Source: Powellomyces hirtus (lineage: Eukaryota; Chytridiomycota; Chytridiomycetes; Spizellomycetales; Powellomycetaceae). Taken from it: a stretch of DNA of 64,000 nt. The notes under the pieces are model-generated. The model saw only the letters and a program-made list of their open reading frames with translations. It did not search any database and was not told the DNA's origin. How positions within the stretch are numbered: position 1 is the first letter of the stretch; every line of letters begins with the position of its first letter. Both the position numbers and the translations under genes were made by a program. The stretch is from assembly GCA_025526995.1 (NCBI GenBank), contig JAHLKG010000008.1:62001-126000 (forward strand), given 5' to 3'. Below, in pieces: positions 34,678 through 62,600 of this stretch.

Positions 34678-35411
34678 CATGCGCCTGATCCCCACGTCCC
34701 CATGTGCCCCACCACCCACCCGTACCATCACTCTCCTCGCACTGTACATTACATCATACAACATGCACATATATTGTACATGTTTTGCTTAACTCTCCGT
34801 AATGAAAAAATTGCTCGGCATGTTCGTCCAGCGTCTTGACGTCCCGCACTGATTCGGCCGCAATCTGCGTAGACTGCCGATTGCGATTTTGGACTTCTCG
34901 GCAAACTGAGAAGAGCTGTGGGCTTGCCAGAGGGACGCAAACAGGATAAATGGACGCCAAGGGTTTTGACTGGGGCCTAAACCAGCCCATGCGCAGATCG
35001 CCAATTGATCTTTTATAGCTCGAGATTAAAATTACTCCCTATCAGCTGCAACCTATCTAAACATCTATCAGACTCCCATGGAAGGGGGAGATCTGATATG
35101 CCAAGAACAGCCCAAAAAGCCGGTCAATGATGCCAAGAGGAAGCCGCAGGTGTTTGGGTTACGTCAGCAACAGCACGCGTAGCGAGTTTAACCTTGGAGC
35201 AAAAGTGTGAGCGTGAGTGAACACACGAAGGAGGATCGATAGATAGGTGTCATCTAATCTGGCTACACCTGCTGACAAGACATCTGCGCATACTTAAGAA
35301 AGCGATTTCTACTCTTGACGCAAAATCTGATCCCAAGCTATTCCCATTCTTGACCCAAAGCGTAATCCCATGTTTTTCCCATGTTGAGCCAACCTTGACT
35401 CAAAGCGTAAG
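34678..35411. other. Intergenic, with a transporter-pseudogene fragment
   Basis: Apart from the fragment listed at 34795-35010, no gene is supported. The repeated phrase GACxCAAAGCGTAA occurs just before the next gene (near 35356 and 35398). Confidence 0.5.
34795..35010 (-). pseudogene. Fragment of an ABCB-type transporter, duplicate of 41880-42110
   Basis: The sequence is clearly similar, in the same orientation, to 41880-42110. Both encode on the minus strand a membrane segment with the shared phrase PFILFAS.WQAHSSSQFA and a following QxAADSV-type helix. Here the frame is broken by small indels and there is no ATPase domain nearby, so this is a displaced copy of the larger pseudogene 7 kb away. 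Confidence 0.75.
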
Positions 35412-37076
35412 ATGGCGGACTCGCTTGTCATTGAATGGGGTGTCGAGTGGACAAGCGCCCGTTTCTCAGAGCTCTCTCACCAAATCTCCTCCAGTTTGAC
35501 AAAGCTGGAAATCCATGTGGAAGGCCGTCAGCCTGGCACACCCACGGAGGCAAACTTCTTGGAATTCGTTGCATCCTTTCCGCATGTAATAGACATTGCC
35601 ATCCGCGGCGCGCAGAAACCCGCGCCAGATGAGACCAAAGACCTCTCGCCAACTCTGCAATCATTCATTGGGCGCGTCGAAGCTCTGTCGCTCTCGAGTG
35701 CCATGTTTCGTCAGCTGCTCGGTTCGCAAAAGGAGTTTGGTGTCCTGAAAGTGCTGAACATTACGGGCAAAGTGGATTTCTTAGGCACCTTTCTCAAGCG
35801 TGCTCCGCGGCTGGAGGAACTGAGCTGTCGTTTGGCGAATCGGCTGGAATCGACCATCGACATGACGCACGGCTCGCTACGGTCCCTCCAGTTGCAGTTT
35901 GCTCACGGCGACAAATCCAAACATCCCACCGTGACCCTCTTTGGCGCGCTACCGTCACTCGAAGCACTGCATTTGAGTAGTCGGCGCGGCGTGTATGTGG
36001 ATGGCCGCGCTCTGCAGGACTTGTTGCTGACAGCTAGAAGGCCATTGAAACAACTTTACATTGATTTAATACATGCATGGTCACTCTCTCGCCTGTTGGC
36101 ACAACAAGTTCCCTCGCCGGAACATGTACTTCTGGATGCCCACTTCTTGGACGAGACCGCCAAATGGCCGGACTGCTTGGAGCTACTGACTCGAGATTGG
36201 AAACTTGATCCCACATGCATCCTCCCCTTGCTTACCGACGGCGCCATGCTGCAGGCAAAAGATGCGCCTCTGGCTTTCAGAGCGCTGCGTACCTTGGAAG
36301 GAGTCCAGTTACACGCCAATGAGTCGGGGGGACTTCCTCATGGATGGTTAGTGCGGTCTCCGGAATCACTCGTCTCCCTGGTTCCTGCGATATCGAAACT
36401 GGACATAATTGGGTGTGACGACCTCACCAGTGAGCGTCTTGCGGTCGTTCTTGACGCGTTGCCGCACATTTCCGAGCTGGACCTCTCCAATAACCATCAT
36501 CCCGGTTTTCGGGTGTTGAAACTGCGATCGCTCTCGCTCAAGACTGTTCGTTTCACCCATTTCCATGCTCTCGAATCGTATGACGTCCACTTACCTGCGC
36601 TCATCTCCCTGGAACTCGATAATTGCGGCGTTTCTCCAGACTCGCCTCGCAGTTACTTGGAGCCAATCACGTACAGCAACTTTCCAGAGCTCTTTTTAGC
36701 AGATCTGCTGCGGCCATCTCATAAACAACGAACCGGTGCCATTCATCTGCCTCGCCTGCAAACCCTGAACCTCTGGCACAACTCAGACGCGATGTGCAAT
36801 ATCCCTGGCGTCATGGACGACCAGCGCGTGAAAGTTGATTGCAGCGCTGGTCATCCGACTCTACGCGAACTGCGCATGTTCAACTGCATGCATTTGTGGA
36901 GCATGACGTTGCGCTCAGTACCGCAACTGAGAGAGGTGTCCATCACTCTGCAGGGATGTGACGCATCGGAGCTGCTTTGGACGTCTCCGTTTGAAGATGT
37001 CGACGACCGGTGTTCCGTGAAACTTGATCCTCGCATTGTCTTTATGAAAGATCCGCGCGAGCAGTTCAAAAAATAA
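35412..37076 (+). CDS. Leucine-rich-repeat-like protein (554 aa, intronless)
   Basis: One long frame with regular leucine-rich strands (for example LEALHLSS, ISELDLSNNHHPG, LISLELDNCGVS, LQTLNLWHNS) spaced through the protein, the look of an irregular LRR solenoid such as F-box/LRR proteins. No F-box is visible at the N-terminus, which begins directly with a short hydrophilic segment. No signal peptide or membrane helix is seen. Function unknown; a role in substrate recognition is only a guess from the fold. It is flanked by two copies of a transporter-pseudogene fragment, so it sits in a rearranged region. It has no intron, unlike most genes around. Confidence 0.7.
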   Translation: MADSLVIEWGVEWTSARFSELSHQISSSLTKLEIHVEGRQPGTPTEANFLEFVASFPHVIDIAIRGAQKPAPDETKDLSPTLQSFIGRVEALSLSSAMFRQLLGSQKEFGVLKVLNITGKVDFLGTFLKRAPRLEELSCRLANRLESTIDMTHGSLRSLQLQFAHGDKSKHPTVTLFGALPSLEALHLSSRRGVYVDGRALQDLLLTARRPLKQLYIDLIHAWSLSRLLAQQVPSPEHVLLDAHFLDETAKWPDCLELLTRDWKLDPTCILPLLTDGAMLQAKDAPLAFRALRTLEGVQLHANESGGLPHGWLVRSPESLVSLVPAISKLDIIGCDDLTSERLAVVLDALPHISELDLSNNHHPGFRVLKLRSLSLKTVRFTHFHALESYDVHLPALISLELDNCGVSPDSPRSYLEPITYSNFPELFLADLLRPSHKQRTGAIHLPRLQTLNLWHNSDAMCNIPGVMDDQRVKVDCSAGHPTLRELRMFNCMHLWSMTLRSVPQLREVSITLQGCDASELLWTSPFEDVDDRCSVKLDPRIVFMKDPREQFKK

Positions 37077-37709
37077 ATCATTTCGATTATCGCCTCACAG
37101 CACTTTGGCACGATCTCCCTCTAGCCATACAGAAATCATTACACTTTCCGGAGCGGGGTAAGAAAGGGGACGCCGCGCTCGTCATACAGCTGCATCATGG
37201 CGATAATCACCGCCCAATCGACTTCTTTGTCGTGGAAATCACGACGTTGTGGACGGCTGGGACGGGCTCGTCGTTGCAGGCCACAACCACGGTCGGTGGG
37301 GAAATCAAAGTAAGAGTTGTACGGGACGCGGACAGATCGACGTTCGGGTGGACAGGGCGTGGCGGTGGCGTCTGGGGTGCGCTGTTCAACTTCGCGGGTG
37401 CTCGCGTGCGATGCTGTGCCAGGGAGCGGGCGGCGGAGAGGCGGGTCTGTGGGGACGGATCAATGTGCGCCCAGGAGCATCCTGCACTTTGCCGGTGCTT
37501 TTGTGCTGTGAATGCGGGATGGGAGTGTGTCGAGTGTGTTGGCATAAATAAGTGTTGCCGCGGAAGGCAGAATGTCCGGGATGGATCGCACGGCTTCCTT
37601 TCCATGATGTACTCACAAAAAGTGTTTACTTGATGACCCATAGGATGAAGGCGACAGGTAATGGCCAGTTGAAACCGGGTTAGAGAGACTCCCTACCTGC
37701 TCTCTAACC
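37077..37709 (-). other. Possible C-terminal coding trace near 37141-37270
   Basis: On the minus strand a short frame ends with a protein-like tail (EVDWAVIIAMMQLYDERGVP, then a stop near 37140). Its upstream part is low-complexity and no exon join was found. It could be the last exon of a lost gene. No other content is supported in this stretch. Confidence 0.2.
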
Positions 37710-37973
37710 CTAATCCCAACCCTTCTCTTTGCTTAATCCTGAGATTTTGTCTTCTTTTCGAAGCCAATAGTGGACTAATATCTCGGTTCCGACTGGAATG
37801 TCTTTGGTAACCTCCAAGTCATACCCTCCCAGGGTATCAAACACGTTCCGTGCCTGCAGTAGTCCGCGATGCGCGATGCGTTTGTCCGATCCACGGAAGG
37901 TCTGTGTTGTGTGTTGGGAGCGAAATGCCCACAGAGATGCAGCCAAGAGAGATGCAGCCAAGAGGGTGCGCAC
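37710..37973 (-). pseudogene. Possible SET-domain-like fragment
   Basis: The minus-strand frame holds DLEVTKDIPVGTEILVHYW, which resembles the end of a SET methyltransferase domain, where a strand is followed by D-I-x-x-G-E-E-I and a Tyr. The catalytic NHS motif is absent and the frame upstream is degenerate. A remnant is the best guess. Confidence 0.25.
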
Positions 37974-37984
37974 GCAGAGTCAGA

Positions 37985-38075
37985 AAGCTGTTGTAAACTA
38001 AAGCCCGTCCACACACACAAGGGAGGTATACACAGTTCCCGACTCTCTCTCCTGTTTCGTTGCCATTAACAGCCA
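37985..38075 (+). repeat. Direct repeat, copy A (partner at 42640-42765)
   Basis: Shares a nearly identical block starting GGTATACACAGTTCCCGACT and ending near CATTAACAG with the sequence at 42690-42751, and has weaker similarity on the 5' side. Both copies lie in the degenerate island in the same orientation. Confidence 0.7.
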
Positions 38076-38410
38076 CGGTGTTTACAACAAAAGCGACGCG
38101 CATAGCGGGCACGTACTGTATAACCTTCGTCCAGAAAATTCCGTAGGGAGTTTCAGAATTTAAGCAGCTTCTTTGCCTCACACCTAAAGAAAAATATGGC
38201 ATTGTGGCGTTGACCGAGTGCGAGATAGTAATTCTCTAAAGAAAAGGATGGCGTTGTGGCGTTGACCGAGTGCCAGATTCTCCATTTTGCCGGTCCAAAC
38301 ACCAGTCCAAAACAGTATTTTCAGACGGCAGTAGTGAATGGTCGGTCACTCACGCTCATCTCACTCCGCGTTTCAACATGCGCACACAGAAAAAGAATCC
38401 TGAGTGCCGA

Positions 38411-38806
38411 ATGGGAACAGCACTTGCGGGAATGGCTGCGGCAAGTGCGCGGTGGAAGTGGCAGCTGGCACGACAGCTACGTCATGACGACATAGTGGCA
38501 GTTATCGATATCACAGGTGCGAAGTGGCATTCGGCAGAACGAGATCATCACTTATCGATATTCACAATGCCCCGAAGAGGAAAAGGACTCAAGCGCAACG
38601 GCATTGATAATGACCTCCGTGCAAGAGTCATCAGAAAGGTGGCCTGACCGGGCTGTCTCTTCCCACGCTGCGCACTGCCGCTGTGCACATGATATCGATA
38701 AGAACGCCCACTACCGGTATGGCCCGCGTGATTGCCACAGCCGTCTTGCTGGCGGCCACTTCCACCGCCCACTTGCCGCAGCCATTCCCGCAAGTGCCGT
38801 TCCCAT
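38411..38806. repeat. Large inverted repeat, diverged (palindrome 1)
   Basis: The left arm (from 38411, about 50 bases closely matching, then weaker to about 38510) is the reverse complement of the right arm ending at 38806. The paired arms share a block coding for GMAAAS-type sequence and an ATCGAT core further in, offset by about 14 bases. The centre is near 38608. Confidence 0.75.
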
Positions 38807-39353
38807 CCGGCGTCCAGGAGTACAAAAGCATGCGCAGTCCACTCACCCCTCTTCAAGCCCGTCTCTTCATTCGAGTGCGCGCAGTGTCCAAGTTTTGCAC
38901 GGAAATGGCATCAGCGATTTCGTCATGCCCCCTGGAGTTGTGCCCAAGGTATGCCGTACCCTGGAAAAGCAGGTAAACCACAGTCAGCACAGCAGCTGTC
39001 AAATATGCGGTTTGGGACGTTTCGATTACCCTTCGCTAACTCTATTCCGTTACCCCACTCAATTTCTTCTCCTCGTCTAATACCTCTGTTGCCCAATGTC
39101 TCTGCGTCTCTCAATCGACACTACGTTGAAAACCGCGCGGCGTAAAACGAAGGCACGCATCAAGGGAACTCCCAGGATAGCCCAACTCCCAACAGGAGGC
39201 GCCAACCAGGTAACCGAGCACACGAGCCCATTGAGTTTCCTTCTCCCAACTTGTCGCTGATGAGATCCCGCACAGACATTGCTTTCTGTGACAAACCTTC
39301 CACCAGGCAATGTGTGGATAGACATCGGCTCGGCTGCCACTCAATAGTGGCCA

Positions 39354-39566
39354 GCAAACGGCAATCCTGCAAATACCGACGTATTGAGAGTGGGAATGCA
39401 GTTGGTAAAGAAAATGTATGATTCCGACAAGATCATCGTAAGCCTAAATCCTTACTGGGACGCAGTGAGGATTTAGGCTTACGATGATCTTGTAGGAATT
39501 ATACATTTTCTTTACCAACTGCATTCCCACTCTCAATACGTCGGTATTTGCAGGATTGCCGTTTGC
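39354..39566. repeat. Near-perfect palindrome, about 104-bp arms and 5-base loop (palindrome 2)
   Basis: 39354..39457 pairs with 39463..39566 around a 5-base loop. Only about three positions do not match as Watson-Crick pairs. A transcript or single strand here would form an extremely stable hairpin. Confidence 0.9.
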
Positions 39567-39696
39567 CAACATCTGCTGAGTGCTTGCTTTTCGACTCAAC
39601 TCCGATATCAGGATTGGTTTCGCGGGGGCGATGCGTACCGCGACTGGGTCAACTACATGGTGAGCATCCGTCCTGGGTTGAAACGATAGGTGTTTC

Positions 39697-40211
39697 AACT
39701 GATACAGATATTCTACTTCCCTTAGGAGACAGACCCATGGGCTTACGTTTGCTTGTGGAGGTAACAGAGAACGCGTGGATATTGTTCCTCTAACTTGGGC
39801 TATCAGCATGGTCACCAACACTTTCTGGGCGGGAGCGCATCCCAATCTTTGCCCAGTACCGAGTCCTTCCCAGACACAAGTGCGGAAGGATTTCGTTACG
39901 GAGAATGAGGAATACGAAGTAGTTGAGCACCCTGAGTTACCTGAAGACAGTCCATTGGCGACTCAGTGGACTGTCTTCAGCTGTGCTCAACAACCTCATA
40001 CTCCTCGTTCTCCGTAACGAAATCCTTCCGCACTTGTGTCTGGGAAGGACTCGGTACTGGGCAAAGATTGGGATGCGCTCCCGCCCAGAAAGTGTTCGTG
40101 ACCATGTTGATGGCCCACGTTAGAGGAACGATATCCTGGCGTTCTATGTTGCCTCCACGAGCAAACGTAAGCCCATGGGTCTCCTAAGGGAAGTAGAATA
40201 TTTGTATCAGT
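39697..40211. repeat. Very long inverted repeat, about 250-bp arms (palindrome 3)
   Basis: The left arm, about 39697..39954, and the right arm, 39967..40211, are reverse complements at roughly 90 percent or better, with a few small indels. The 12-base spacer is flanked by the perfect pair CTGAAGACAGTCCA / TGGACTGTCTTCAG. The arms contain protein-like sequence that I do not recognise. Confidence 0.9.
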
Positions 40212-40653
40212 CAATCTCTCCAGATCCTCCGCCAATAGTTTCCCTTTGTACCCAAAAAAATGAACACGGGGTTTGGGAGACCTGAACCCAATCTACTCCG
40301 AAGGAGCTAACACCACTCTGGTGGACTTTCGTATTCCGGTTCTGGTTTACAGCGGTGATGGTGCTCAGGCCGCAGCGTGAGCTGCACGTATTGAAGCTGC
40401 AAAAGCCACTTGCATTGGACGGTAAAACTTGGGTTGTGTCATACTCTGGAGTGATAATTACAGGTTGTTCTTTCTGTTGGGTGTTTGCCTTCCTCTTGTT
40501 GGCTTTCTCGTTGACTTTCTCGTTCATCTCAAGCAGATATCTGCGTATGACGTCCCGTAACCCCTTTCTGTTACATAATGGTGTACGCAGTCCGTTCTGG
40601 TGTACTGTGCCATGCTCTCTCAGAAACAGAATTCCTCTTGAACCGCCGTGAAA

Positions 40654-40715
40654 TGAATACGAGTGGATTGGCAGTGAAATGAAAACGATTGTTTGCCAAT
40701 CCACGTATCACCGGG
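40654..40715. repeat. Small inverted repeat with about 15-bp arms
   Basis: ATACGAGTGGATTGGCA near 40657 is matched in reverse by TGCCAATCCACGTAT near 40694, separated by about 20 bases. One indel in the arms. Confidence 0.6.
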
Positions 40716-40853
40716 AATGAAGGTCACGACAAGATCAAGTCCCAAAAGGGTAGGTGTTATTCTCAAGTACGCACACACCATGAAAGAACTAACAAACTAT
40801 GTTCTCTACAAGTTCTGCTGCCGACATACATCCGCATATACGCCGTTCAAGGT

Positions 40854-42250
40854 TCATGTCGGCCTGACTCGACCGCGCGTCCTCCACTGAACGACCGCTA
40901 TGTGATCCACATTTTTGATTGTTGATAGACGATGCGCAATAGTAACCGTCGTGCGTCCCCGCGCCGCATTATCGATCGCGCGCTGCACGTCTAGCTCGCT
41001 TGTGCTGTCAAGTGCTGCGGTCGTTTCGTCCAGCAGCAGGAGTCGGGGGTGGCGTATCAGGGCGCGGGCGATGGCAATGCGATGTCTCTGACCGCCTGAG
41101 AGATGCCCGCCGTTGTCGCCCATGCGGGTGTCGTACTCGTCGGGCAGAGCCTGGACAAACGCATGCACGTCCGCGCGTTTGGCGGCGTCGACAATCTGGT
41201 CTATTGGGACGGGTTGTTCACTGCCCCACGCAATGTTGTCTGCAATGCTCATGTCAAACAAGACACGCTCTTGCCCCACCAACACAATGCCCGAGCGCAG
41301 ATGCCCCAAGGCGTAGTCTTTGATGCGCAAGAACCCAGGAGAACGTCGCCGGATGTCGCGTCATACCAATGTTCCAAAAAGCCCAAAGATTGTGGATTTA
41401 CCCGACCCCGAGGCACCGACCAAAGCGAGGGGTTGGCCTTCGTGCCGTTCGAGGTGAAAGTGCCCGGTGAAGGTCACCTCGGTGAAAGTCGGGTACTGAA
41501 CACAAGGTTCGAGAACTTGAACCCGTGGTGCGGCGGGGTGCCGGCTGCACATCCCGGCGAGTCTGAGTCAATAGCCGATGGGCGATCCAGCAATGTAAAT
41601 GCCATCCTTGCTGCGAATTTGCCTTTTGGGAAGGCCTGGGTTACGCCCGGCGGTGGAGGCGAGCGAAATCATAGTTGCCAGCACGCAGATCACGGCCGAA
41701 TGACGTGCTCAATCTGGATCGTCCCATAGTCAATCAGCGTCTGGCCGTACCCGATCCCGATGGCAAGGGTCCACATTGCGTTCGTGCTCTGCGTCGCATA
41801 CACCACAGAGTCACGCACCGCATTGCGCTGGTTCAGTCGGTCCGGTTCGCTCAAAACCGCCGCATATCGCGCCACACTGAATTCTTCCCGGAGCAGCGTC
41901 TTGAGCGTCTTGACCTCCCGCACCGAGTCAGCCGCAACCTGCGTAGACTGCTGAATTGCGATTTTGGACTTCTGGGCAAACTGAGAGGAGCTGTGGGCTT
42001 GCCAGATGGACGCAAACAGGATAAACGGCGCCAAAACCAGCATCATCGACGTCAACGTCTCGACTGGGCCGAACTCTGCCTAAACCGGCCAATGTGCAGA
42101 TCGTCAATCGGAACGTGGTGGTCCACACCTCTGTGACGAGTTTGGGCGCACTGACAACCCGTGCGCGGGGGGGGGGGGGGGAGGGGGGGCAAGGGGATGG
42201 TCCCGTGCCTATTGCCATGACGAACGTGTCAGCAGTTTTGTTGGACATGA
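40854..42250 (-). pseudogene. ABCB/MDR-type ABC transporter pseudogene (second half)
   Basis: The minus strand carries, in order, a transmembrane part (42055-41690, with WQAHSSSQFAQ and SVREVKTLK), the start of a nucleotide-binding domain with Walker A GASGSGKS (41552-41361), and the rest of that domain (41330-40854) with LVGQERVLFD, signature LSGGQ, Walker B LLLLDE and H-loop IAHRLS. These match the C-terminal half of multidrug-type ABC exporters. The three parts lie in different frames: frameshifts occur near 41385 and 41345, another lies between 41690 and 41553, and a poly(G) run interrupts the upstream part. No N-terminal half was found. A fragment is duplicated at 34795-35010. Non-functional as it stands. 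Confidence 0.85.
42167..42189 (+). repeat. Poly(G) run, 15 G, one A, 7 G
   Basis: Homopolymer tract inside the transporter pseudogene region. Confidence 0.9.
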
Positions 42251-42342
42251 CTTTGAAGATCAGGAAACCTAGCAGGCTAAGTCATTCACGAAAGGAGAAG
42301 AAGGTCAATATCCAAGGGCCGTGAATGTGCGATTAATGCAAA

Positions 42343-42744
42343 TTAACGTACCGCTCCAAAGCCCGCACTCACCAAACTCCCAAGGAAAAACCTCATCTTC
42401 ATCCCCTTCATGAGTTTCAAAACTCGCGCTCCAATTTCAATACAGTAGAGACGTACGCGAGCGACATTCTCCGCGTCTGCGCTTCGGCAGACAGTCCCCA
42501 CAAGCTGGGGGAAATGTACGTTGCCACAAAAGACCGCATCCCAACAGACCAAACAGCCCGGCGCCTTGGCCCGCAGGTCCAGAGGTTCTACCCCGGGTCG
42601 GTTCATGAGCGGAGCGGTGAAAGTGATCATAATGTTGCTGTTGTGAACTAAAGTCCAGGCGGCTAGCGCGCCCGTCCTTTCCCTTTCACACAAGGTAGGT
42701 ATACACAGTTCCCGACTCTCTCTCCTGTTTTGTTTCGTTGCCAT
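42343..42744 (-). pseudogene. Open frame next to the ABC pseudogene, probably relic
   Basis: The minus-strand frame includes RVLKLMKGMKMRFFLGSLVSAG at its end, directly upstream of the transporter relic, and may be part of its membrane domain. The rest is unrecognised. Its 5' end overlaps the direct-repeat copy at 42640-42765. Confidence 0.25.
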
Positions 42745-42765
42745 TAACAGTGCAGCACCCTATTG
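42640..42765 (+). repeat. Direct repeat, copy B (partner at 37985-38075)
   Basis: See copy A. This copy has a GTTTT insertion in the CTCCTG-TTTCG part and additional bases on the 5' side. Confidence 0.7.
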
Positions 42766-42910
42766 GTTTACATGGGCACGCACCACAGTGTTTGCAACAG
42801 TCGCCATGTTGCAGCGCTATTGGGGAACAAAAAAAAATGGAAAGCAACCGTGCAAGTTTGCGATGAAGCCCACCCCAACAAACATTGTGCAACTCTCCAT
42901 CTAATAATCT

Positions 42911-42934
42911 CCCCCCCCCCCCCCCCCCCCCCCC
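42911..42934 (+). repeat. Poly(C) run, 24 bases
   Basis: The longest C homopolymer in the window. Confidence 0.92.
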
Positions 42935-43081
42935 AACAACAAAAAAGCAGAAAACAAACAAACGCTTACATATAATCATCCTAATATTCCAAAAATCCGC
43001 AAAACGTCACAACTGCAAAAACGGGAATGTGCCAAGAATAGAATCACGCCACACAAAAATCAAAGGCAAACAAACAAATCA

Positions 43082-43174
43082 GCGGATTTGCAGAACCACC
43101 GGAGATAAATAGCCAGAGCGCATTTGCAGAACCCCGGGAGATGAATAGCAGAGCGCATTTGAAGAACCCCGGCA
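43082..43174 (+). repeat. Minisatellite, about 35-bp unit, 2.6 copies
   Basis: Units begin GCGSATTTGCAGAACC and start at about 43082, 43118 and 43153, with a few substitutions. The array ends 14 bases before the ATG of the small gene at 43188. Confidence 0.8.
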
Positions 43175-43187
43175 GTTTCCAAGCATC

Positions 43188-43472
43188 ATGCCCGCCTCAA
43201 TTGCACCCATCCCCACCGATAATGACACAGCTCTCAACCGGCAGCGAGTGGAGAAGCTCGAACGCGAGCTGGCCAACCTAAAACGCAGTCATGAGAGACT
43301 CTTGAAGCGGCACAAGGTAGAGACTCTCTGTTTGAAATTATGAGATAAGGTATGTCCTTATCTGATACACCATGATGCACAGTTCTACATCTGGCTGGGA
43401 TTCGGTCCATATATTCGAAGAATGACTTTGGCGATGGAGGATTCTGAGGATTCTGATAAGAAATTTCAATAG
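43188..43472 (+). CDS. Possible small coiled-coil protein (2 exons, 72 aa)
   Basis: Exon 43188..43316 encodes a short coiled coil (VEKLERELANLKRSHERLL). A 66-nt intron with a GTAGAG donor and CACAG acceptor leads to exon 43383..43472, which begins FYIWLGFGPYIRRM and ends acidic. Both exons code for whole codons. No family was recognised. It stands alone at the edge of the degenerate island, so it may be a relic or a young gene. Confidence 0.4.
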
Positions 43473-43571
43473 ATCGTTAATAAGAACGTGGCCTTTTTGT
43501 TTCTGGTTGGTCTTCTTTCCGTGGCCGGAAGTTGGGCTGCCTGTTCAGACAGCCCTTACGCCTCCCGTGTG

Positions 43572-43593
43572 CCCCCCCCCCCCCCCCCCCCCC
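43572..43593 (+). repeat. Poly(C) run, 22 bases
   Basis: C homopolymer in intergenic DNA. Confidence 0.92.
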
Positions 43594-43630
43594 GCGCAGC
43601 AAGTGCCACTCTCACTTCTGACACTCTGTA

Positions 43631-43707
43631 ACAGTGCAGCTATCATTCCATCACTGTAGTGGTCTCATCCACATTGGACCATTTGTCCAGAATGATAGCT
43701 GCACTGT
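43631..43707. repeat. Inverted repeat, perfect 17-bp arms
   Basis: ACAGTGCAGCTATCATT at 43631-43647 is exactly complementary to 43691-43707, with a 43-base loop between. Confidence 0.85.
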
Positions 43708-44111
43708 CTCTGTTACAACGAAGTCCACACCTGTATTCCTAAAGAATTGCAATAGACAAGTGGGCATTGAATCCCTTCTGCAGCTGTTGTTATGGGACAG
43801 GCATGTGAATCCTATAGCTGGCAATTACTTTTTTGTGATTTCGAACATTCCGAAGCGAGGCACACGACACACACTGATGCTTTTGTCTGCCGAGTGTGCG
43901 AGCTAACCTGCCACGACACACACTGATCTACTGCCACGACATCTACTCCGGCCAGACATGACGTTCACCTGGGACTCACCTCTGTCTGGCGCTTAAAAAC
44001 AGCTTGCATCACAATGCTCCCTGCCCCCATCCCCAACCAAACAGCACCAAACCCACGCTCCTCCTAACCTTCTGTCTCAACTTTCCCATCCCGCAGTCCT
44101 GCACCCACAAC

Positions 44112-59638: not shown

Positions 59639-62600
59639 CTACAGCTTGGCTTTGGGAGTCGCGAGCTTGAGCACAGCGTCAATCTTACTGTAATGTGAGG
59701 AGAGGAAAAGTCAGAATCAAGATGTGGAACGCTACATTCCACCGCATTGTTGCCGCCGAACTTACGTGGACAGAGCCATGTTGCCCTTGATCTTGATCTT
59801 GCCAGCCATAAAGGCTTTTTGTGGCTGGAGCTTGCCGGCAGCGAGCTGAAGGAAATCCTTGTCGCCGACGAGGACGGTCATGTCGGCCTTGCCGCTGGGG
59901 GGTGCGCCGGCACCGACGGATCCGTCGCCATTCTTCAGGTCAACGTACCAGCTCTGCTTCTTGCCATCCGCGTTGGTAATCTCGAATCCGAAAACGGACT
60001 TGATCTGATAACAAGCAAGGATAAATTTTGTTAGTTACACGTGGTGGAGTTGACCGTCGGTGTATGGTACAAACCTTCTTGACCTGCGCCGCCTTGGAAG
60101 AGGCCGGGGCAGCAGCCCAACCAGCCTGGATCTGCTCAAAGATCTTGGAGGAGGCAAAGCCAGGAACGGCAACATCGCCGCCCTTGGCCGACTCGGCGGC
60201 AGGGGCGGGGGCACCAGCAGCCTTGGGCTTGGCAGCGGGGGCAACATCGCTGGCGACATTGTCAAAGTTGGCCTGCACGGCAGAGAAAGAGTCCTGGGTG
60301 CTGGTAGGGTAGGTGGCACGACCGTCGTCAAAGTTGATGATGTCAGCCCATTTGGCAGCAATGTGTTCGGGAAGAAGAGGCTTGTTGACGGGGAAGCCAA
60401 CGCCACCGGTGCGTTGCCATCGGACCTTGGCAGTCCACCCGGAACCGACCTCAAAGACACCACCGGTTTCGGCGTTGCTCTCGTGTCCGAGGAAGGCAAC
60501 CAACGGAGCAACGTAGTCGGGCTTGAGAGCCTCAACCATCTCTGGTGGCATGACGGTGGCAGTCATACGAGTACCAGCATTAGGGGCGATGGTGTTGACA
60601 ACAATGTTTGCGCGAGCGCCTTCCAGGGCCAGAGTGTTGCTGAAGGCAACAATACCAGCCTTGGCAGCACTGTAGTTGGCCTGGCCAAAGTTTCCGTAAA
60701 GACCGACAGCAGACGTGGTGTTGATGATACGTCCGTACTTTTGCTTGAGCATGTGGGGCCACGCAGCTCTGGCTACCTTGTAGGTACCACGGAGGTGGAC
60801 TCGCTGAACGAGATCCCTAAAAAGAAACAATGATTAGGACCCAACGCTATACCAAAGCATGCAACTCGGGCGGCATTACCAGTCGTTGTCAGTCATGCGG
60901 GTGAAGGATTTGTCGCGCAGGATACCGGCATTGTTGACAATGATGTCAACGCGGCCGAATGCGTCAAGGGCAGTCTGAACAACCTTGTCGCCATCCTCAA
61001 CAGAGTCGTGGCTAGCGACGGCCTTACCACCGGCAGCCTTAATCTCCTCGACGACCTTGTCGGCGGGCGAAGCCTCGCCTCCCTCGCCCTTGGTTCCAGT
61101 GCCAAGATCGTTGACAACTACGGAAGCACCAAGCTACATAATAGGAACTGTAAGCGCTCACTCAATGTCACAAACGCATCCAGGTGTAGTCGTCTGCTGC
61201 CGAATTACCTTGCCGAAAAGCAAAGCGTGCGCTCGGCCGAGACCGTTGCCGGCGCCAGTGACGATAGCCACTTTTCCGTCAAATCGAAGTTCAGTGGGGT
61301 TGGGGTTGGAGTCCAAAGACTTTGCCTCGTCCAAAAGGCCGACCCAGTCAGTGTCCATGATGGACTCTGGGTATTGCGGCTTGTCAAAGTTGGTGATCTC
61401 GCCCCACTTTGCTTGCACAGAGGCAGGGGTGAAGCTGGAATCGGCCTTGAAGACCGCTCCCTTGGATCTCTCCCAGCGGAGTTTCGCAACGAAACCGGCA
61501 CCGACTTCAAAGATGGAGCCAGTCTCCTCGGTGGATTCGTGAACCAGGTAGGCAACGAGGGGAACGACAAACTCGGGCTTCAGGGCAGCCAACATTTCCG
61601 GGGGCATCACGGTCTCGGTCATGCGCGAGGCGGCGAGAGGGGCAATGGTGTTGACGCGAATGTTCTTCTTGGCACCCTCACGGGCAAGAGTGTTGGAGAA
61701 TCCAAACAGAGCCAACTTGGCTGTAATCGGACAACGTTCAATTAGACACACGCTGGAAATGTGCCTACATCCATAAGGAACTTACCAGCGGCGTAGTTGG
61801 CCTGGCCAAAGTTTCCGTAGATACCAGCAGCAGAGGCAGTGTTGATAATGCTGAAGGCCAGGAAACATTTAAGGTGAAGGACGAAAGGCGAATAGTCTAC
61901 TATGAATGAGCCTACCGTCCGTAACCCTGCTTCTGCATGTGGGGCCAAGCCGCCTTGGCGACCTTGTAGGATCCACGAACGTGGACGGCTTGGATGAGGT
62001 CCCAGTCGGCATCGGTCATACGAGCGAAAGATTTGTCGCGTAGGATTCTGCCAAACGACGACAAACAAAGTGTCAGCACACGGGGATTCTAGAGAGAGAT
62101 GGATCCGCGCTGAAACACCATGCCGCCTCCTCTATTTCAAAGAGACATTCCCAAGAACCGGGTCGTCCAGAGGACACATGGTTGGTCGCTCCTCGCACGT
62201 CCCCCCACGTCCTCTCCATTGAATCATTTGAAGGGGAGATGTGAAGAAATCGAGACGTACCCGGCATTGTTGATGACAATGTCGACCTTTCCGAAAGCGT
62301 TGATGGCAGTTTCGACAATCTTGTCACCGTCTTCCACCGAGTCGTAGTTGGCAACGGCTTTACCGCCAGCCTTCTTGATCTCGTCCACAACAACATCGGC
62401 AGCCTATCCGCATGATATTGTCAATGACATGTGTGAAATGCTGTGAATTGAGTTTTTGTCGCGTGCTTACCCTGTGGTTGCCGCCTTCATCGCCTGTTCG
62501 GCTGGCACCAAGATCGTTCACAACGACGGATGCACCTGAAATCAACGCAGAATGGTCAATTTTACGATTCTGTGTAGTGACATTTGGAGACAGGACAGAT

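Follow-up and report, generated by a model that had tools for sequence, protein, structure and literature searches.

Fold-back inverted duplication is a described mechanism, with a short spacer, inverted microhomology and an adjoining deletion (PMC3907307). Among RNA-producing loci, the hpRNAs of Drosophila are gene-derived hairpin RNAs (PMC10292708), and an inverted duplication model exists for plant miRNAs (PMC3237417). Arm-to-arm gene conversion is known from the palindromes of sex chromosomes. A further point of comparison is provided by non-autonomous Tc1/mariner (IS630-Tc1-mariner) and MITE-like elements.

Powellomyces hirtus is a soil chytrid and an early-branching fungus. The stretch of DNA analysed here (64,000 nucleotides, C8:62001-126000; hereafter, the window) was searched against the 29.26-Mb, 60-contig P. 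hirtus assembly. Our reading is that a cluster of palindromes in this window is probably composite, consisting of (i) a shortened transposon relic, I3, and (ii) next to it, a decayed gene, two of whose exons run on into mirror-image copies of themselves, giving palindromes I2 and I1. Literature searches on chytrid Tc1/MITE elements and on Powellomyces gave, among the matches listed, no title on the family or the cluster locus, and the words chytrid and Powellomyces are absent from the accessible portion of PMC9757828.

The inverted repeats of the window

A repeat finder, applied to positions 36000-44000, returned three large inverted repeats; its other pairs are distant G and C runs, or one weak 27-nt pair. 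The comparison of the whole 64 kb with itself (E<=1e-4) recovered the same three as the sole inverted repeats. Their identities in this self-comparison are 86% for I3, 96% over 213 columns for I2, and 87% over 526 columns, with gaps, for I1. The initial annotation placed the three large centres correctly, give or take a few bases, and, as it claimed, the arms have diverged to different degrees. The repeats are as follows.

38398..38819, no strand: I3, a non-autonomous Tc1/mariner-type (DDE_3) transposon relic of 422 bp (terminal repeats, 11 loci, DDE_3 match)
39338..39588, no strand: I2, palindrome of exon E2, with a 5-nt loop; the core, 39354-39566, is 96% identical
39698..40211, no strand: I1, palindrome of exon E4 and a little of the preceding intron (repeat finder, self-comparison)
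40663..40704, no strand: small inverted repeat with 11-bp perfect arms (40663-40673/40694-40704)

The repeat finder places the I3 arms at 38398-38478/38739-38819 (81 nt, 86% complementary, 260 nt between), those of I2 at 39338-39457/39463-39582 (120 nt, 92%, 5 nt between), and those of I1 at 39731-39930/39983-40182 (200 nt, 93%), with additional 33-nt outer arms. The I1 spacer is nearly zero once an inner insertion is allowed for.

The small repeat at 40663-40704, listed in the initial annotation as a fourth member of the series, does exist but is one of seven separate centres that the window contains when perfect arms must reach 11 bp or more and the loop may not exceed 60 nt (five outside 39300-40300, two inside). 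Twenty random windows generated under a first-order Markov model contained a mean of 0.7 such centres and a maximum of 3. Small inverted repeats in general exceed this null, and the one at 40663-40704 is a minor feature that is not special to its spot.

For comparison with other parts of the genome, inverted pairs (E<=1e-8) were sought in 34 of 78 genome loci, a non-random sample of 121,852 bases in which many loci had been picked for transposons. Twelve pairs were found, in 11 loci. Eleven of these lie in I3-family, DDE_3 or other-repeat loci and are read as transposon ends; the twelfth is a 49-bp palindrome whose loop is very short (L032:2344-2392).

Several other features surround the cluster. 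Two copies of another dispersed repeat occupy 37985-38095 and 42637-42802 (91% over a 64-bp core); their ends resemble short inverted repeats, CTGTTGTAAAC...GTTTACAAC, and further matches lie on C2, C33, C16, and C26. A direct repeat joins 34830-34960 and 41904-42034 (132 columns, 91% identical), the latter copy sitting in a minus-strand frame that, judged by eye from the open frames, is apparently part of an ABC transporter. Three long G or C runs fall within 1.5 kb (42167-42189, 42911-42934, and 43572-43593). Further away, 60439-61055 and 61495-62391 form a diverged direct duplication of four blocks (69-86% identical), perhaps two related genes. The window also holds a tRNA-His guanylyltransferase frame with 99% identity to a P. 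hirtus protein; a tRNA scan found none.

I3 and its relatives

Searching the genome with I3 returned 11 loci, including the window. The ends of the 10 other copies (L034-L043) were surveyed, and 11 element ends are visible among them. TA stands directly outside a TCCTG- or TCCAG-type end in 10 of the 11; the exceptions in the survey are L038, whose right end lacks TA, and L043, which has no end at all. The inverted termini of L034 measure 83 bp (93%). This copy, at L034:2081-2487, is inserted at the TA of AGAGGAAGTA and splits what we take to be the 3' end of an 18S rRNA gene. Rfam, at gathering scores, made no call for this apparent 18S rRNA end, and gave no match in the window or in L034. 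The window copy of I3 is flanked by AA on the left and GT on the right and so shows no target duplication, which counts against the present reading. Because these dinucleotides stand where other copies have TA, we conclude that the duplication once carried by the window copy has decayed.

Two further loci, L057 and L058, each contain an open 399-residue frame matching DDE_3 (PF13358; 79 and 73 bits, respectively), and carry terminal inverted repeats, 99 and 88 bp long, starting with TATCCTG. The interior of I3 aligns with the transposase start of these elements over 40 bp (75%, E 4e-4).

38567..38647, plus strand: transposase-start remnant in I3, 26 codons and then a stop, MPRRGKGLKRNGIDNDLRARVIRKVA

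Here the window copy has MPRRGKGLKRNGIDNDLRARVIRKVA followed by a stop, where L057 and L058 read MPKGAIHHRRNCIDNDLRQRIIKSVM. Elsewhere in the family, L036 reads like the window copy, and L034 and L035 are frameshifted. The match to the transposase start indicates that I3 is an internally deleted relative of a DDE_3 element like L057 and L058; internal deletion of such a Tc1/mariner element would have produced the non-autonomous form.

Alignment with the other copies reveals four 6-base inserts in the window I3, in which TA has become TATCGATA three times and TACCGGTA once.

38503..38510, no strand: putative excision footprint 1, TATCGATA; insert absent in 2 of 2 pattern-matching copies
38553..38560, no strand: putative excision footprint 2, TATCGATA; insert absent in 3 of 3 pattern-matching copies
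38693..38700, no strand: putative excision footprint 3, TATCGATA; insert absent in 4 of 4 pattern-matching copies
38712..38719, no strand: putative excision footprint 4, TACCGGTA, element ends CC...GG; insert absent in 4 of 4 pattern-matching copies

At site 3, L035 is one base off the search pattern and likewise lacks the insert; site 1 requires one further base change. All three occurrences of TATCGATA in the window are inside I3, as is one of the two occurrences of TACCGGTA. Across a set of other genome loci (120,652 bases), TATCGATA was found four times and TACCGGTA once. Two of these four outside occurrences of TATCGATA sit in another repeat (in L041 and L043) with flanks resembling footprint site 3, and footprint 3 may therefore have been inherited along with a repeat. 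The repeat in question is a further small one, present in L041, L042, and L043; it has 39-bp inverted repeats in L042 and L043, and carries a shorter form of TATCGATA in L042.

We infer excision as the cause of the four inserts. Related elements would later have jumped into I3 at TA sites and then left, leaving TA-TC-GA-TA and TA-CC-GG-TA footprints behind. Four such inserts in a 422-bp relic would record repeated jumping in and out of a single element.

I2, I1 and the gene family of C4 and C20

A protein search of the genome pointed to a gene at C4:35.0-36.2 kb, which in turn yielded a relative with a 339-residue open frame at C20:590.8-591.5 kb. The matching parts of the window are listed below.

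39276..39460, plus strand: decayed gene, exons E1 and E2 (E2 is the I2 left arm); C4 gene matches; in-frame TAG at the outer end
39463..39588, minus strand: I2 right arm, inverted E2 copy; C4 match E 2e-6; reads ...SLNPHCVPV through the loop
39600..39659, plus strand: possible exon E3, LRYQDWFRGGDAYRDWVNYM then GTGAGC; placed by eye only
39736..39930, plus strand: E4, I1 left arm; 195 bp compared; C4 match E 1e-6
39983..40177, minus strand: inverted E4 copy, I1 right arm; C4 match E 2e-5

E1 matches the C4 gene over 29 aa (52%, E 2e-7) and E2 matches it from both I2 arms (left, E 7e-5; right, E 2e-6). The order E1, E2, E4 is the same in the window as in the C4 gene, a likeness that is directly observed. 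The C20 gene matches window E1-E2 (E 4e-4) and also aligns with C4 over a middle part that the window lacks after E2. E3 has no tblastn match in the comparisons with C4 or C20. The nearest relative of the decayed gene is ~40% identical as protein. At E<=0.1, no inverted repeat turns up in either the C4 or the C20 stretch. Within the contig, a short telomere-like array of TAACCC-like units (L078) lies downstream of the C20 gene. Of the weak matches in the genome protein search, which also included C28 and C19, the one on C4 was taken further and that on C1 was judged unconvincing by eye.

These matches indicate that the I2 and I1 arms consist of exon fragments, from a gene that has decayed and belonged to a small family. 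When I2 and I1 were compared as protein no alignment was obtained, which points to their derivation from different exons and not from each other. Neither strand of the region holds an intact gene, because (i) the I2 left arm has TAG where the right arm has CAG, (ii) four extra bases in the I1 left arm put E4 out of step with E3, and (iii) E4 of the I1 right arm, which would be in step with E3, stops soon past the turn (all by eye). The description of the locus as a gene-poor island is hence partly right, the decayed gene occupying 39276-40178.

Searching a protein database with the C4 query (E<=0.01) returned only its own annotated protein (P. hirtus, DFJ77DRAFT). The C20 relative was not returned either, so this result is no proof that the gene family is confined to Powellomyces. 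A protein search with the I1 frame gave no candidate, and a PDB search with the same frame gave none. Two PDB matches of the I2 frame (E 0.09 and 0.59) are read as chance, and the one Pfam match among eight frames of the region (E 0.14) is far below its cut-off.

At the nucleotide level, I2 and I1 are each without another match in the genome, and 39264-40211 as DNA matched nothing elsewhere in the assembly at E<=10, in a search whose first look skips common words. A single family for all three repeats is rejected on this ground. A related possibility is that the cluster unites foldback elements or MITEs from three separate families, with I2 and I1 as last surviving copies: I3 is such an element, and other dispersed repeats lie in the neighbourhood. 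We consider this very improbable, given that I2 and I1 lack a second genomic match, that no target duplication was seen by eye at their ends, and that their arms match a gene family. The search of the arms against the rest of the genome, suggested in the initial annotation, has thus located a family for I3 (11 loci, window included) and no second DNA match for I2 or I1; the decayed foldback element offered there as one explanation is right in kind for I3 only, with its relatives at 10 other loci. The separate origins it proposed are supported, I3 being a transposon relic and I2 and I1 exon palindromes.

The differences between the arms are not evenly placed. In I2, the outer 16 bp differ at 7 sites and the next 66 positions are identical; the motif AATCCT[TC]AC and its near-complement flank the loop and may reflect inverted microhomology at the turn, where the arms hide the prior sequence. 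In I1, one frame gives near-identical peptides from the two arms: there are 15 differences in 195 bp, affecting 14 codons, of which 10 keep their amino acid. When the differences were placed at random, a mean of 3.4 synonymous codons resulted in that frame (P = 0.00025 for at least 10); the frame was picked after looking, and multiplying by six, once for each frame, raises P to about 0.0015. One antisense frame also has 8 of 14 synonymous. The longest identical run between the I1 arms is 89 nt (P = 0.00085). Since the differences fall mainly at synonymous sites, it is most likely that the I1 arms diverged while still coding, or that one arm came from a living relative.

These patterns speak against an artefact of assembly or library, in which reads fold back on themselves. 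Short-loop palindromes are a known product of hairpin-adapter libraries. The arms of such artefacts would be nearly identical, however, and those seen here are 4-14% apart and carry indels, the I1 differences falling mostly at synonymous sites, which makes this the least probable of all the readings considered.

The best mechanism, we infer, begins with the inverted duplication of two exons in one decayed gene, each passing through a short loop into its mirror copy. Breaks, followed either by fold-back synthesis or by joining across short inverted homologies, would have given rise to I2 and I1; later gene conversion from arm to arm would have partly evened out the arms and would explain the clustering of their differences. 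The same anatomy makes a breakage-prone site, as put forward in the initial annotation, possible for I2 and I1. Three observations sit uneasily with the plainest form of this mechanism. Firstly, identical arms in a dead gene would diverge without coding bias, so the synonymous bias in I1 is evidence against simple copying in place; it would be accounted for if a living relative had been copied or joined. Secondly, the outer 16 bp of I2 differ at 7 sites, next to 66 identical positions. Thirdly, of the two readings through the I2 loop, the one on the minus strand follows the C4 gene further (HCVPV/HCIPV), which plain fold-back of a plus-strand gene does not predict.

All three count in favour of convergent paralogues, i.e., related genes lying tail to tail in which deletions at short matches brought exons near contact, so that the arms were never in-place copies. 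The minus-strand copies, however, run E4 then E2, against gene order, and this would call for at least two inverted gene copies as well as several deletions; moreover, it would be a coincidence for each of two exons to end up with a loop of almost no length. Convergent paralogues are in our judgement rather unlikely, and we prefer fold-back or microhomology joining with later conversion, in that order of events. The exon palindromes make it possible to distinguish coding constraint from conversion and from decay within a single small locus of an early-branching fungus equipped with RNAi genes.

A role in silencing must also be weighed. Transcripts of I2 and I1 could form long dsRNA from which Dicer would cut small RNAs that silence members of the gene family. 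Both palindromes are predicted to form the long, strongly paired inverted repeat expected of an hpRNA (z -30.7 for I2 and -50.2 for I1, no shuffle folding as well), and the genome contains matches to Piwi at 7 places, to RdRP at 3 places, and to RNase III on C6, C17, C3, and C27 (two of them in one 1826-residue frame on C6). Set against this are the lack of a DNA match for 39264-40211 elsewhere (E<=10, common words skipped in the first look), the distance of the nearest relative (~40% as protein), and the I1 mismatches, which favour neither strand clearly (8 G.U vs 4 A.C). The hairpin RNA source raised in the initial annotation therefore stands as to folding and the presence of RNAi genes, and falls short for want of a close target; we regard it as improbable. 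Slightly less probable again is a version in which I2 and I1, made from exons of a fast-evolving gene family (here only in Powellomyces), were kept to silence family members, perhaps selfish ones, that have since been lost, have diverged or are absent from the assembly; the differences at synonymous sites would then record co-evolution with the target. As a whole, most of the cluster is ordinary debris of the genome, and the likelihood that it yields or once yielded silencing RNA is small. If I2 and I1 do make small RNAs, they would offer a natural test of how gene-derived hairpins begin.

Comparison with described systems

I3 shares with non-autonomous Tc1/mariner elements its terminal inverted repeats and a remnant of DDE_3 transposase; the TA target duplication is common to the other I3 copies and lost in the window copy. 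Its footprint-like inserts keep two terminal nucleotides from each element end. Typical MITE families have far more copies than the 11 loci found here, and in this the I3 family differs from them.

Like the gene-derived hairpin RNAs of the accessible accounts (PMC10292708, PMC3237417), I2 and I1 are inverted coding copies in a genome with RNAi genes; they differ in that no close target was found. The likeness to sex-chromosome palindromes lies in clustered arm differences and long identical runs. Those palindromes measure kilobases and more, whereas I2 and I1 measure hundreds of bases and show no sign of a sex chromosome.

With the fold-back inverted duplications of PMC3907307, as far as its accessible portion describes them, I2 and I1 share a mirrored copy after a short loop; the part of the gene missing next to I2 may correspond to the adjoining deletion. 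The differences are of two kinds: (i) those duplications are of megabase scale, whereas these are of exon scale and occur twice in one gene, and (ii) the I1 arms differ from each other, having diverged under coding constraint. No named element is known to have the layout of the whole cluster, as the initial annotation stated, because the cluster would be a composite of kinds already described. A transposon relic and exon-scale inverted duplications can between them make up a striking series of palindromes.
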